Below, piece after piece: positions 7,291 through 29,014 of a stretch of DNA of 36,888 nucleotides. The DNA is from Burkholderiales bacterium 68-10 (GTDB lineage Bacteria; Pseudomonadota; Gammaproteobacteria; Burkholderiales; Burkholderiaceae_C), in NCBI GenBank assembly GCA_001897615.1, contig MKTG01000089.1:16235-53122 (forward strand), in the 5' to 3' direction. The notes beneath the pieces were generated by a model. That model was not told the DNA's origin, ran no database searches, and was given only the letters and a program-made list of their open reading frames with translations. Positions within the stretch are counted from its first letter, which is position 1. Every line of letters starts with the position of its first letter. The position numbers were made by a program, and so were the translations under genes.

Positions 7291-8994
7291 ATGGCACTGC
7301 GCCACCTCAGTCTGCGCGACTTCGTCATCGTCCCGGCGCTGGAGCTGGCGCTGACGGGCGGCTTCACGGCGCTGACCGGCGAGACCGGTGCCGGCAAGTC
7401 GATCCTGGTCGACGCGCTGCAGCTGGTGCTGGGCGGCCGCGGCGACGCCCTGTGGGTGCGCGAGGGCCAGCAGCGCTGCGAAATCGCCGCCGAGTTCGAG
7501 CTGCCCGACGCCGCCCGCCCCTGGCTGGCCGAGCACGGCTTCGACACCGACACCGACGCCCTGCTGCTGCGCCGCGCCATCGACGCCGCCGGCAAGAGCC
7601 GCGCCTGGATCAACGGCTCGCCGGCCACCCTGGCGCAGCTGCGCACGCTGGGCGAATGGCTGGTCGACATCCACGGCCAGCACGCCTGGCAGAGCCTGAC
7701 GCGAGCGGCCGCCGTGCGCCAGCTGCTGGACGCCTACGCCGGCATCGACACCGGCCCACTGGCCGACGCCTGGCAGGCCTGGCGCCAGGCCGAGGTCGCG
7801 CTGGCGGCCGCGCGCGCCGCGCAGGACAGCCTGGCGCAGGAGCGCGAACGCCTGCTGTGGCAGATCGGCGAACTCGACAAGCTGGCACCCGGCGACGGCG
7901 AATGGGACGAGCTGAACCAGCGCCACGCCCGGCTGTCGCACGCGCAGGCGCTGATCGACGCCGCCCGGGCCGCCGGCGCCGCGCTGGAAGGCGACGACGG
8001 CGACAGCGGCGCCCTGCCCGCGCTGGCGCAGGCGCACGATGCGCTGGCCGGGCAGCGCGACATCGAACCCGCATTCGCCGCCCTGGCCGAACTGCTCGAT
8101 TCCTGCATCGCGCAGGCACGCGACGCCGCGCACAGCCTGCACGGCTACCTGCGCCGCGCCGACCTGGACCCCGAGCAGCTGGCCGCGCTGGACGAGCGCC
8201 TGGGCCAGTGGATGGGCCTGGCGCGACGCTTTCGCCGCCCGCCGCAAGAGCTGCACGCGGTGCTGGCGCAGTGGCGCGCCGAACTGGCGGCGCTCGAATC
8301 CGCCGCCGATCTGGCGCAACTGCAGGCCCGGGCCGACGCGGCCCAGCAGGCGTTGCAGCAGGCCGCGCGCGCCGTCTCGCGCCAGCGCGACCAGGCCGCG
8401 CCACGCCTGGCCACCGCCGTCACCGAGGCCATGCAGGCGCTGGGCATGGCGGGCGGGCGCTTCGAGGTGCAACTCGACAAGCTCGCCGAGCCGGCTCCGC
8501 ACGGCCTGGAAAACGTGGCTTTCCTGGTCGCAGCGCACGCCGGATCAGCGCCAAGAGCTATTGAAAGAGTAGCATCCGGGGGTGAACTGTCGCGCCTGGC
8601 ACTGGCCATCGCCGTCACCACCAGCCAGCTGGGCACGGCCGGCACGCTGGTGTTCGACGAGGTAGACGCCGGCGTCGGCGGCGCCGTGGCGGCCACGGTG
8701 GGCCGCCTGCTGCAGCGCCTGGGTCGCGACCGCCAGGTGCTGTGCGTCACCCACCTGCCGCAGGTGGCGGCCTGCGCCGACCAGCACCTGCAGGTCAGCA
8801 AGCAGGCCGCCGGCGACGCGGCGCCGACCAGCCAGGTGGCGCCGATCAGCGGCGAGGCGCGCACGCGCGAGATCGCCCGCATGCTGGGCGGCGAGCGCCT
8901 GTCCGACGCCACGCTGGCCCATGCACGGGAAATGCTGGCGCCGCCGGCCGCCGCACCGGCCGCGGCGGGTGGTACGCGAAAGGCACGCGCGTGA
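7291..8994 (+). CDS. recN: DNA repair protein RecN
   Basis: A 567-residue SMC-like ATPase acting in recombinational repair of double-strand breaks. The N-terminal lobe has Walker A GETGAGKS (30-37). A long helical coiled-coil region spans about 155-400. The C-terminal lobe has the ABC signature [13 protein letters not shown], Walker [10 protein letters not shown], and the D-loop/H-loop region ([11 protein letters not shown]). It starts 3 bp after nadK and its GTGA end overlaps rapZ. Oddity: the codons just before the signature (SAPRAIER, 8547-8573) are A/T-rich and match a chromosomal dispersed repeat rather than the high-GC codon style of the rest, yet the reading frame and expected length are intact. 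Confidence 0.97.
8547..8573 (+). repeat. Dispersed AGCTA-N9-TAGC repeat, copy inside recN
   Basis: AGCGCCAAGAGCTA followed by nine bases and TAGC. It matches the intergenic repeat copies at 13884, 23488 and 27590 in the AGCTA-N9-TAGC module and in the preceding GCGCC(A). This is the only copy wholly inside a conserved protein domain. Confidence 0.6.
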
Positions 8995-9896
8995 TCCCCA
9001 CCCCGCCCCCCGCGGCCGCCGCCGAGCCGCCCACCGGCACCGAGCTGGTGGTGATCACCGGCATGTCCGGCTCCGGCAAGTCGATCGCGCTGCGCGCGCT
9101 GGAGGACGCCGGCTACTACTGCGTCGACAACCTGCCGCCCGAGCTGCTGCGCCCCTTCATCGCGCTGGAAGACCGGCGCCAGGCGCGCCGCCTGGCCATC
9201 GCCATGGACGCGCGCAGCGGTGAATCGCTGCCACAGCTGCCGCCGCTGCTCGACGGCCTGGCCGAGCAGGGCGTGCACCTGCGCCAGATCTTCCTGGAAG
9301 CCAACGACCACACCCTGGTGCGGCGGTTTTCCGAGACCCGGCGACGCCACCCGCTGTCACAGGCCGACGAAGGCGACGTGCAGCAGGCGCTGCTGCAGGC
9401 GATCGCGCGCGAGCGCGAGCAGATGGCCGACCTGCGCGAGCGCTCGCTGGTGATCGACACCAGCGTGCTGCTGCCCTCGCAGCTGCTGGCCAGCGTCAAG
9501 GCCTTGATCGCCGCGCCGCTGGCGCACCTGACGCTGGTGTTCGAATCCTTCGCCTTCAAGCGCGGCATCACGCTGGACGCCGACTACGTGTTCGACGTGC
9601 GCATGCTGCCCAACCCGTATTACGTGACCGAGTTGCGCCCGCTCACCGGGCGCGACCGGCCGGTGATCGACTACCTGGCGCGGCAGCCCGACGTGCAGCG
9701 CATGCAGGATCAGATCGCCGGCTTTCTGCGCGCCTGGCTGCCGGCGCTGGTGCATGACCACCGCAGCTACGTCACCGTGGCCATCGGCTGCACCGGCGGT
9801 CAGCACCGCTCGGTGTACCTGGTGGAGCAACTGGCGGCCCAGCTCGGGCAGGACTGGACCACGCTGCGCCGCCACCGCGAGCTGGACGGGCTGTAG
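8991..9896 (+). CDS. rapZ: RNase adapter protein RapZ (P-loop nucleotidase family)
   Basis: A 301-residue protein starting with the GTG inside the GTGA overlap with recN; the upstream in-frame region is recN in another frame. Walker A GMSGSGKS is at 24-31, followed by the family motif [16 protein letters not shown]. The C-terminal half has [19 protein letters not shown], and [14 protein letters not shown], the phosphate-binding RapZ C-domain that senses GlcN6P and guides RNase E to GlmZ in enterics. In betaproteobacteria it may have a different RNA partner; the sequence does not show which. The N-terminus has about 12 extra Pro/Ala residues. Confidence 0.93.
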
Positions 9897-9910
9897 CGGC
9901 AGTAAAACAC

Positions 9911-9962
9911 GTTCCAGCGCCCGTCTGGCAAGCGCAAGCAGCTACCAAAGTTGCAGCTAGCG
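9911..9962. repeat. Dispersed repeat, copy in rapZ/hydrolase convergent spacer
   Basis: GTTCCAGCGCCCG, then AAGCGCAAGCAGCTA, nine bases, CAGCTAG. It shares GTTCCAGCGCCCG with the copy at 27590 and keeps the nine-base spacer. It lies between two convergent stop codons. Confidence 0.75.
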
Positions 9963-9984
9963 GAGGCCTGGAATCGCGCCGGCC

Positions 9985-27657: not shown

Positions 27658-28626
27658 TCATATCTCGCTGGCCTTCACACGCGGGTCGATGAGCGCGTAC
27701 AGCACGTCGACGATGAAGTTGACCACTACCACCATCGCCGCCAGCAGCATCACGCAGTTGCGCACCACGATCAGGTCGCGGTTGGCGATGCTCTGGAAAA
27801 TCAGGCGCCCCAGGCCCGGCAGGTAGAACACGCTCTCGACCACGATGGTGCCCGCCAGCAACTCGGCAAACTGCAGGCCCATCACGGTGATCACCGGGAT
27901 CATGGCGTTGCGCAGCACGTGGCCCCACAGCGTGGCGCGGCGGCTCAGGCCCTTGGCGCGCGCGGTGCGCACGAAGTCCTCGCGCAGCACCTCCAGCACC
28001 GCCGAGCGCGTGAAACGCGCCAGGATCGCCGCCTGCACCAGCGCCAGCGCCACGGCGGGCAGGAGCAGCGACTTCAGGCCGTCCCACAGTCCGGCCCACA
28101 CGCCGTCGTCGAAATACCAGCCGTCAAAGCCGCCGGCCGACAGCCATTGCAGCTTGACCGAAAACAGCATGATCAGCAGGATCGCGAACCAGAAATTGGG
28201 GATGGCGATGCCGACCTGTGCCAGCGCCATCAGGCCGGTGTCGCCCAGCCGGTTGTGCTGCGACGCCGCGTACACCCCGACCGCCAGCGCCAGCAGCGCG
28301 GTCAGGCACATGGCCAGCACGGCCAGCGGCACCGTCAGCCGCAGCCGCTCGGCAATCAGCTCGGCCACCGGCGAGCCGTAGGCGTAGGAGGTGCCCATGT
28401 CGCCGCGCAGCAGGCCGCCCATCCAGTCCGTGTAGCGGGCCAGCGCCGGCCGGTCCAGCCCCAGTTCGAGCACCTTGGCGGCCACCGCGGCGGGGTCGGC
28501 GTCGGGCCCCATCAGCACCTCGGCGGCATTGCCGGGCAGCACCTCCAGCACCGCGAAGACGATCACGCTGGTGGCCGCCAGCGTGGCCAGCAGCGTGAGA
28601 ACGCGTTTGAAGAGGAAGTAGCTCAT
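27658..28626 (-). CDS. ABC transporter permease (DppB-like)
   Basis: A 322-residue permease from ATG 28626 ([20 protein letters not shown]). The first helix is followed by the periplasmic loop with [20 protein letters not shown] and [10 protein letters not shown], motifs conserved in DppB/GsiC. The EAA loop is [20 protein letters not shown]. The C-terminus ends [16 protein letters not shown], typical of the family. It is divergent from the ferredoxin gene and is the first gene of the transporter operon. The operon downstream is interrupted by the IS1595-family element. Confidence 0.94.
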
Positions 28627-28712
28627 GTGCGGCGGCCCGTGCTGCATGGCATTATCGACACATCGGGCGTCGCATCTGGCGCGCCCCTCTCGCCACAACC
28701 AGGAGCGCATGG

Positions 28713-28964
28713 ATGGCCCTGATGATCACCGACGACTGCATCAACTGCGACGTCTGCGAACCCGAATGCCCCAACCAGGCGATCTCGATGGGCGAGGAGC
28801 ACTACGAGATCGACCCCGACAAATGCACCGAATGTGTCGGGCACTTCGGCGAGCCGCAGTGCGTGCAGGTGTGCCCGGTGGACTGCATCCCGGTCAATCC
28901 GCTGCGCGTGGAAGACCCGCAGGTGCTGTTGGCCAAGTTCCGCCGCCTGCTCGGACAGGACTGA
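28713..28964 (+). CDS. YfhL-type 2[4Fe-4S] ferredoxin
   Basis: An 83-residue ferredoxin. The first cluster motif is [12 protein letters not shown], the second [21 protein letters not shown], with the enlarged CxxC-x8-C spacing typical of the YfhL/Alvin ferredoxin group. Such proteins are low-potential electron carriers of unknown or varied partners. An ATG four bases upstream in another frame is not used. The gene is followed by a convergent spacer with a dispersed repeat and the ftsK stop. Confidence 0.94.
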
Positions 28965-28969
28965 GCAAT

Positions 28970-29014
28970 GCTTTTGATTTGATGGCTGCTGGCGCTTGTC
29001 TGTGGCCAACCCCA
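28970..29014. repeat. Dispersed repeat, copy between ferredoxin and ftsK stop codons
   Basis: GCTT, nine bases, TGGCTGCTGGCGCTTGTCTG, in reverse orientation. It fills the convergent spacer and keeps the core GCTGGCGCTTG and the nine-base spacing. Confidence 0.75.

Follow-up and report, generated by a model that had tools for sequence, protein, structure and literature searches.

A dispersed 67-base element of Ottowia and other Comamonadaceae that may be a long chromosomal binding site and recurs in the gcuF integron cassette

The stretch analyzed here, hereafter the window, is 36,888 nucleotides of DNA from Burkholderiales bacterium 68-10 (GenBank assembly GCA_001897615.1, contig MKTG01000089.1, positions 16,235 to 53,122 of the forward strand), in which nine copies of a short dispersed repeat had been described from the letters alone. 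The repeat belongs to a larger unit, and the reading that we favor, and hold tentatively, is that this unit is a long chromosomal binding site for a putative factor that reads sequence and duplex shape over about 67 base pairs (bp). The reading is built on fixed spacing, the lack of stem covariation and of copy families, and strand-symmetric dinucleotide preferences; on orthologous sites that keep their orientation, species dialects, rare codons at copies inside genes, and the scores of the recN site; and on copies that are fewer in divergent gaps and missing from 24 kilobases (kb) that span a restriction-modification/IS21 island. The putative factor would bend or wrap its site, the sites, retained mostly at the ends of transcription units, may mark or insulate these ends (with a roadblock, topology, or chromosome-domain role), and any drift of the factor would be followed by its sites. 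The original prediction had offered a selected fold and a protein that binds two half-sites as alternatives; the fixed spacing and the missing stem covariation favor, indirectly, the putative protein.

The unit was defined in the window and 20 further stretches of the host genome (G000, genus Ottowia), together 432 kb and taken from contigs with known hits. With position 0 placed at the first base of AGCAGCT, it is a gap-free 67 bp from about -44 to +23, beyond which the flanks are at background information (112 copies). The G000 consensus, with strong positions in capitals, reads gatT..gagtcAAAtcgGcCtctaGCGCttGcc.ggCgaGCGCCAGCAGCTATcaatTtagtAGcat and falls into an AT-rich left module (about -42 to -30), a GC-rich middle with GCGC at -20 and -5, and a near-palindromic right module of AGCTAT, WWW, and ATAGC at +3 to +20. 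A score-matrix search of both strands gave 116 hits above 14 bits, 112 of them without overlaps, and Markov-1 resampled sequence gave none; a frequency no higher than chance had been named in advance as grounds for giving up the motif. Furthermore, the pattern AGCAGCT-N11-AGC has 311 exact matches in the whole G000 genome, against 103 for the reversed pattern. The refined set of 111 copies extrapolates to about 935 per 3.64-Mb genome, a figure that is possibly slightly high because the sample favors contigs already known to carry hits; in some Comamonadaceae, copies number roughly a thousand per genome.

The spacing inside the unit is nearly invariant. Between core and right module, 82 copies have the expected offset, and no other offset from -12 to +12 has more than 2; between left half and right module, the numbers are 70 and at most 1. 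The left AT module is at its expected offset in 79 cases and at -1 and +1 in 24 each, which we attribute to runs of A or T that match themselves. Thus, fixed spacing with free spacer bases, as originally described, was borne out, and the length of the spacer hardly varied across the 432-kb sample. All nine copies described in the window lie in register with one unit, although the one anchored at 28990 is weak (12 bits with the refined model, 23.5 with the first) and has a degenerate left half; the other eight have 40 to 68 bits by the refined model. The real unit is longer than had been recognized.

Sites are kept in place between species. Aligned DNA of four relatives (G010, G003, G011, and G014) is 81.6 to 84.3% identical to the window, and over ten informative Ottowia pairs, which are not independent of one another, 44 of 68 orthologous sites have the same orientation, 1 has the opposite one, and 23 are absent. 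Contig-start stretches of G003 and G014 are nonsyntenic and were left out of this comparison, in which window copy 9 fell below the threshold. Within the window, copy 5 has a counterpart in the same orientation in G010, G003, and G014 and none in G011; copy 6 has one in G010, G003, and G011 and none in G014; and copy 7 has one in G010, G014, and G011, and with the first model in G003 too. Copy identity is 0.62 at orthologous sites and 0.49 at other sites. Species nevertheless write these shared sites in dialects: on the two sides of these 44 pairs, 84% and 91% of copies score better with the matrix of their own species (a matrix that includes the copy itself). The middle reads GCGC...GCGC in G000 and GCCC...GGGC in Polaromonas and is quite different in G007 and Paracidovorax, whereas spacing and outer modules are constant across dialects, some of whose consensuses come from 5 to 20 copies.

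Closer inspection of copies inside genes points in the same direction. Gene contexts follow our own codon-model gene calls, so single assignments, including some of those inside genes, can be wrong; by these calls, 26 of the 111 copies are in genes, on either strand, with mutS, recN, gcvP, and a thiolase gene among the hosts. All 26 score above 2,000 synonymous resamplings, and 279 of the 710 codons at these sites are rare, compared to a background of 7.5% (the copies tested were selected by score, but the Markov controls reached no value above 14 bits). Where they could be compared, the encoded proteins carry no inserted segment of the unit's length. Aligned over the element to their closest solved structures, the mutS product differs by one residue, the thiolase by none, the gcvP product by one, an ABC transporter by one and two, and a CCA-adding-type enzyme by seven. 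In four relatives, 15 in-gene copies were listed, two of which have homologs that span the site; an orthologous pair in G010 and G014 differs by 0 to 2 residues from homologs in two element-free relatives. In all seven comparable cases, the difference is at most 7 residues and never the length of the unit.

The recN site of copy 1 recurs at the same place in seven other Ottowia. Across these eight genomes, it scores 20 to 43, and 4 to 9 of its 15 codons end in G or C; in seven other Ottowia, the score is -28 to -60 with 9 to 15 such codons, and in G002 it is +9 with 11. In eight genomes from other families, the range is -42 to +3. The RecN protein alignment has no gap at the site. Hence, the unit seems to be under selection at the level of DNA, even inside protein genes.

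Is it the fold that is selected, as had been proposed? The consensus is able to form hairpins, and the folds of several copies in the window, though not of others, are better than those of shuffled sequences. Across copies, 59.7% of cells are paired, compared to 59.5% after shuffling, and 185 of 500 shuffles are as high; stem totals in three genomes are at most 1.4 standard deviations (SD) above expectation or below it, the right stem of G014 even 3 SD below. Mean mutual information of columns at a distance of at least 4 is 0.0557, against 0.0550 when shuffled. Stems thus do not covary, and selection for structure did not hold up, fold energies giving a marginal signal only. A structured RNA or hairpin was therefore set aside as a candidate after covariance counts, stem-by-stem comparison, and fold permutation had given at most a marginal signal. 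The dinucleotides, on the other hand, deviate from independence in a mostly strand-symmetric way: CA and TG are above and TA and CG below expectation at -22, -11, and +9, CA is above and TA below at +14, and AA and TT are in excess over AT and TA at -33/-32 and +11/+12. Such step preferences may reflect recognition of the duplex by its shape.

The distribution over genes is uneven. Gaps of at least 60 bp in three species hold the element in 33 of 54 cases when convergent, in 108 of 268 when codirectional, and in 11 of 78 when divergent (Fisher P = 2e-8 for divergent against convergent). Orientation within codirectional gaps is even, with 67 copies along the genes and 62 against them. In codirectional gaps of G000, the core is within 20 bp of the end of the previous gene in 43 of 60 cases and within 20 bp of the start of the next gene in 31 of 60. 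Several junctions of the window are occupied nearly exactly by the element; the earlier picture of copies that follow stop codons or fill spacers applies to these and fails for copy 1, which is within recN. A low-GC stretch of 24 kb that includes the restriction-modification/IS21 island has no copies. The island itself (contig C50 of G000, 40001 to 60000) has genes of a restriction enzyme, a DNA methylase, a helicase, and IS21 type, and is repeat-free.

Location at gene ends and between convergent genes would also suit an RNA 3'-end element, that is, a bidirectional terminator, an attenuator, or a stabilizer of messengers, and the marginal pairing signal is consistent with it. We consider this unlikely, since stems do not covary and since genes, mutS, gcvP, and recN among them, contain copies on either strand. 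Furthermore, terminator-like sites in the region number 7, compared to 7.3 in shuffled sequence, and no preference for T follows the stem (AAA in 28 and TTT in 25 of 99 copies). An intrinsic terminator, made of a GC stem and a T tract and expected at unit ends only, was rejected on the same two grounds, in-gene copies such as that in mutS and the missing T preference.

Several observations weigh against the binding-site reading. The unit holds 49.3 bits of information, while 12.9 would be needed to locate the sites, and this excess is in line with copies made from one shared source. At two junctions, the gaps of the nearly element-free O. thiooxydans and of an element-free metagenome-assembled genome are 9 to 15 bp, about 60 bp shorter than elsewhere, where gaps with a copy are 65 to 76 bp (six cases), 126 bp, and 211 bp; the short copy-free gaps look like insertion or deletion and not like evolution in place. 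Two carrier species without a copy at such a junction still have gaps of 56 and 127 bp. G003 and G008 have inverted dimers with a common centre and anchors 62 to 63 bp apart (loci L093 and L099), an arrangement not typical of G000; the left part of window copy 3 is similar to the half unit of these dimers. Copies fold 1.2 to 2 kcal/mol better than column-permuted ones. When halves are swapped between copies in the central loop, 0 to 0.7 kcal/mol is lost (six tests, 0 to 2.9 SD), and swaps in the right loop have no clear folding cost; most of the advantage survives such swaps and is thus largely local sequence, but a marginal pairing effect remains across copies. The coupling of TT and CC at -16 is not strand-symmetric, and the step preferences could come partly from mutation. 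Divergent gaps are strongly depleted of copies in G000 (2 of 41) but less so in G003 (4 of 21) and G014 (5 of 16). In the recN window, synonymous identity is not raised (0.654 against 0.649), a comparison that was uninformative, we think because codons ending in G or C dominate. Lastly, no protein that binds the unit was found in this analysis.

The main rival that draws on these points is an ancient mobile repeat under secondary selection: a short palindromic family, like REP or miniature inverted-repeat transposable elements (MITEs), which is now immobile, inherited vertically, and partly kept for acquired uses. We regard it as possible but less probable than the binding site. The excess of information, the shorter gaps of the two relatives, the inverted dimers, and the hairpin-capable consensus with its well-folding copies and marginal pairing signal speak for it. 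Against it stand the dialects at shared places, the in-gene copies, which retain rare codons and, where comparable, do not add the unit's length, and the scarcity of close copies. Pairwise identity averages 0.505 in the G000 sample, and only 2 of 6,105 pairs exceed the maximum identity of column-shuffled copies; among five relatives, 14 of 6,808 pairs do (6 of 3,570 in G003, 3 of 2,775 in G014, 1 of 190 in G011, 2 of 153 in G010, and 2 of 120 in G015). A recently active palindromic transposon, as had been considered, is not supported, given so few close pairs and differences of at most 7 residues in the seven in-gene cases. The only very close pair of the sample, at 2984 to 3038 and 4279 to 4333 of locus L045, is 91% identical, lies about 1.3 kb apart, and is probably a local duplication.

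A REP/BIME system with its REP-associated tyrosine transposase (RAYT), also proposed beforehand, shares with our unit the hundreds of short, partly palindromic intergenic copies near gene ends and, in some species, inverted pairs. It differs in that few copies of our unit are close and clear covariation is missing, and in its transposase: the Y1_Tnp domain (PF01797) had no match in the host genome G000. Of 20 other Comamonadaceae genomes, 19 have a RAYT gene of 230 to 245 residues (L251 to L269), which by itself would favor the mobile family, and in six of 14 carriers, the element ends in the 3' flank of this gene. The same flank is found in nearly element-free genera as well; its downstream part (TGTCCCC / TCTGACCCCAATT type) is common to 18 of the 19 by eye, with O. 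thiooxydans differing, and Y1_Tnp has GGGGTCAGA-type flanks of its own. Since RAYT occurs alike in element-rich genomes and in five nearly element-free ones, it does not explain the present copy number; RAYT as the present mover was dropped, and the proposed REP/BIME system is not supported. The chromosome of G014 has 20 Y1_Tnp matches, several with identical scores, which are probably a recently active IS200/IS605-type element besides RAYT.

The element is spread over part of the family, as had been suspected. For counting, at most 150 candidates per genome were scored with model R1, whose alignment comprises 93 of the 112 copies (score of at least 40), and a count of 150 is accordingly a lower bound. 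Of 19 Ottowia genomes, ten have at least 150 copies, three have 23 to 62, and six have 0 to 3; in twelve genomes of the order that belong to other families, the count is 0 or 1. Among 25 named genomes, two Acidovorax and three Polaromonas have at least 150, one Rhodoferax has 142, Paracidovorax 115, Ottowia oral taxon 894 62, and another Rhodoferax 42. The remaining 16 have 0 to 5 (O. thiooxydans, two Hydrogenophaga, two Tepidicella, Malikia, Hylemonella, Curvibacter, two Limnohabitans, Pseudacidovorax, Variovorax, Giesbergeria, two further Rhodoferax, and one low-GC Polaromonas), yet in the low-GC Polaromonas a local matrix does find copies. In viral contigs, 16 stretches have an exact 17-mer, which is near chance by a rough estimate.

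Dialects, freedom of orientation, origin in place within genes, and absence from an acquired island are what one would expect of a DNA uptake signal (DUS/USS-like) that has accumulated by biased transformation. Known signals of this kind are likewise found in and between genes; they are far shorter than 67 bases and are recognized mainly by a short core, which counts against this explanation, as does the strongly intergenic position of our unit. Moreover, ComEC was found in 41 of 42 genomes, in carriers and noncarriers alike, so the presence of the machinery does not discriminate. We judge an uptake signal the least probable of the explanations weighed here.

The element also has a carrier on plasmids. 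When plasmid records were searched with the consensus, four of them matched, and two of the matches fall within DUF1010 cassettes close to intI1. On pP11b, the cassette flanked by dfrA12 and aadA2, which we take to be gcuF, carries the element at 67 bits, and the DUF1010 cassette of pA22732-IMP carries it at 44 bits. A 310-base stretch of the pP11b cassette has matches in 1,839 of 72,556 plasmid records (counted by this stretch and not by the element); identity is 95 to 99% in 1,749 of these, and in 1,804 the match covers at least 80% of the query. The host has relatives of it: contig C39 of G000 has four related cassettes, each with the element, in an array with attC-like sites. That array (L304) has eleven CTAAC..GTTAG spans by pattern, and no integron integrase scored above the family cutoff in the G000 draft. 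In the literature, gcuF is the label of the cassette that intervenes between dfrA12 and aadA2 (PMC7845606), and DUF1010 cassettes are reported to account for 42 of 195 cassettes in blaGES-5 integrons (PMC11616780).

The cassette is annotated as a protein gene, yet its frame is flat. Among six cassettes, the three codon positions of the DUF1010 frame differ by 0.256, 0.274, and 0.250, and outside the element by 0.283, 0.266, and 0.237, which gives no sign of coding in this frame; likeness is somewhat higher within the element (0.745) than in the remainder of the cassettes (0.678). DUF1010 (PF06231) has seven near full-length matches in G011, and of 25 weaker matches in G000 (profile positions about 1 to 25), at least 5 fall on known dispersed copies. 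Of 42 genomes, 14 have matches, and every one of these carries the element; seven other carriers have none. The gcuF/DUF1010 cassette thus appears to be a noncoding cassette that carries the 67-base element, which suggests that DUF1010 proteins are annotation artifacts. Insertion of a gcuF1 cassette is reported to go with 10-fold fewer transcripts of the downstream gene in Pseudomonas aeruginosa (PMC3375312), which would suit an RNA 3'-end element if gcuF1 holds the unit; the authors of that study blame a weak ribosome-binding site and cite a cassette of Acidovorax sp. JS42 that is 87% identical.

What is new here is that the gcuF integron cassette carries the element and that its reading frame is without a coding signature. 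Our literature search, outside which most subscription journals lay, found no named family for the unit and no publication that brings these facts together or relates gcuF to an element dispersed over chromosomes. The closest precedent is a pair of motifs from 2017 (PMC5217627). GCTTAT(N)5AAGCG has 114 copies in Acidovorax ebreus TPSY, 107 of them intergenic (44 between convergent, 4 between divergent, and 59 between co-oriented genes), and ATAGCT(N)22CAAAAG has 125 copies in Polaromonas naphthalenivorans CJ2, 101 of them intergenic. Compared by hand, the published strings lie in register with our unit, the first at -18 to -3 and the second, as its reverse complement, at -25 to +8; like our unit, both are mostly intergenic, and the first is rarely between divergent genes. 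In the section that lists them, they are two separate potential novel motifs without function, and neither a joined unit nor dialects nor a link to cassettes is described. BRE repeats, too, are mostly intergenic and occur in Bordetella, Polaromonas, Acidovorax, Delftia, and others; by their description, they differ in length (mostly 75 to 91 bp in Bordetella), composition (mean 69% GC), and often tandem habit, with 1 to 29 copies per genome (PMC3110155).

The nine window copies are listed in Table 1 together with the gene presumed, from its VASGGELSR region, to be recN. None of them matched a curated RNA family in Rfam at E ≤ 1. No copies of the unit were found in window positions 33905 to 36888, where a tRNA-Ser gene, a tyrosine integrase gene (34254 to 35564), and an int-alpA RNA (36186 to 36262) make up an integrative element at a tRNA gene. 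Elsewhere in the window, a perfect 27-bp inverted repeat (24519 to 24545 and 24763 to 24789) encloses 217 bp of intergenic DNA and has the appearance of a small MITE.

Table 1. Copies of the 67-base unit in the window and the host gene of copy 1
Feature	Position	Strand	Start of AGCAGCT	Score (bits)	Context
Copy 1	8509..8575	+	8553	43	Within recN coding sequence
recN	7291..8994	+			Host gene of copy 1
Copy 2	9893..9959	+	9937	50	Between convergent genes
Copy 3	12692..12758	-	12714	47	Codirectional gap upstream of chorismate synthase gene
Copy 4	13873..13939	+	13917	40	Fills 62-base gap between chorismate synthase and histidine kinase genes
Copy 5	18669..18735	-	18691	67.5	Fills gap between two codirectional genes
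Copy 6	21071..21137	+	21115	60	Fills codirectional gap
Copy 7	23470..23536	+	23514	57	Overlaps 3' end of ABC-transporter ATPase gene
Copy 8	27573..27639	+	27617	43	Codirectional gap
Copy 9	28968..29034	-	28990	12	Convergent genes; adjoins FtsK-family gene

In its furthest-reaching form, which we put forward as doubtful, our model is that a Comamonadaceae lineage keeps about a thousand 67-bp, 49-bit sites for one coevolving architectural protein, that these sites arise in place by substitution and are held against codon preference even in mutS and recN, and that gcuF is a mobile copy of such a site and not a gene. The gcuF finding gives a new reading to a known class 1 integron cassette of hospital plasmids (dfrA12-gcuF-aadA2 in pP11b), and with the element in it, direct tests of this cassette of unknown function become possible. 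Place, orientation, and spacing of the dispersed element are kept, its fold not clearly so, and in conserved genes rare codons maintain it; these features point to a DNA-binding system, genome-wide and so far unrecognized, in this large family of bacteria from the environment.

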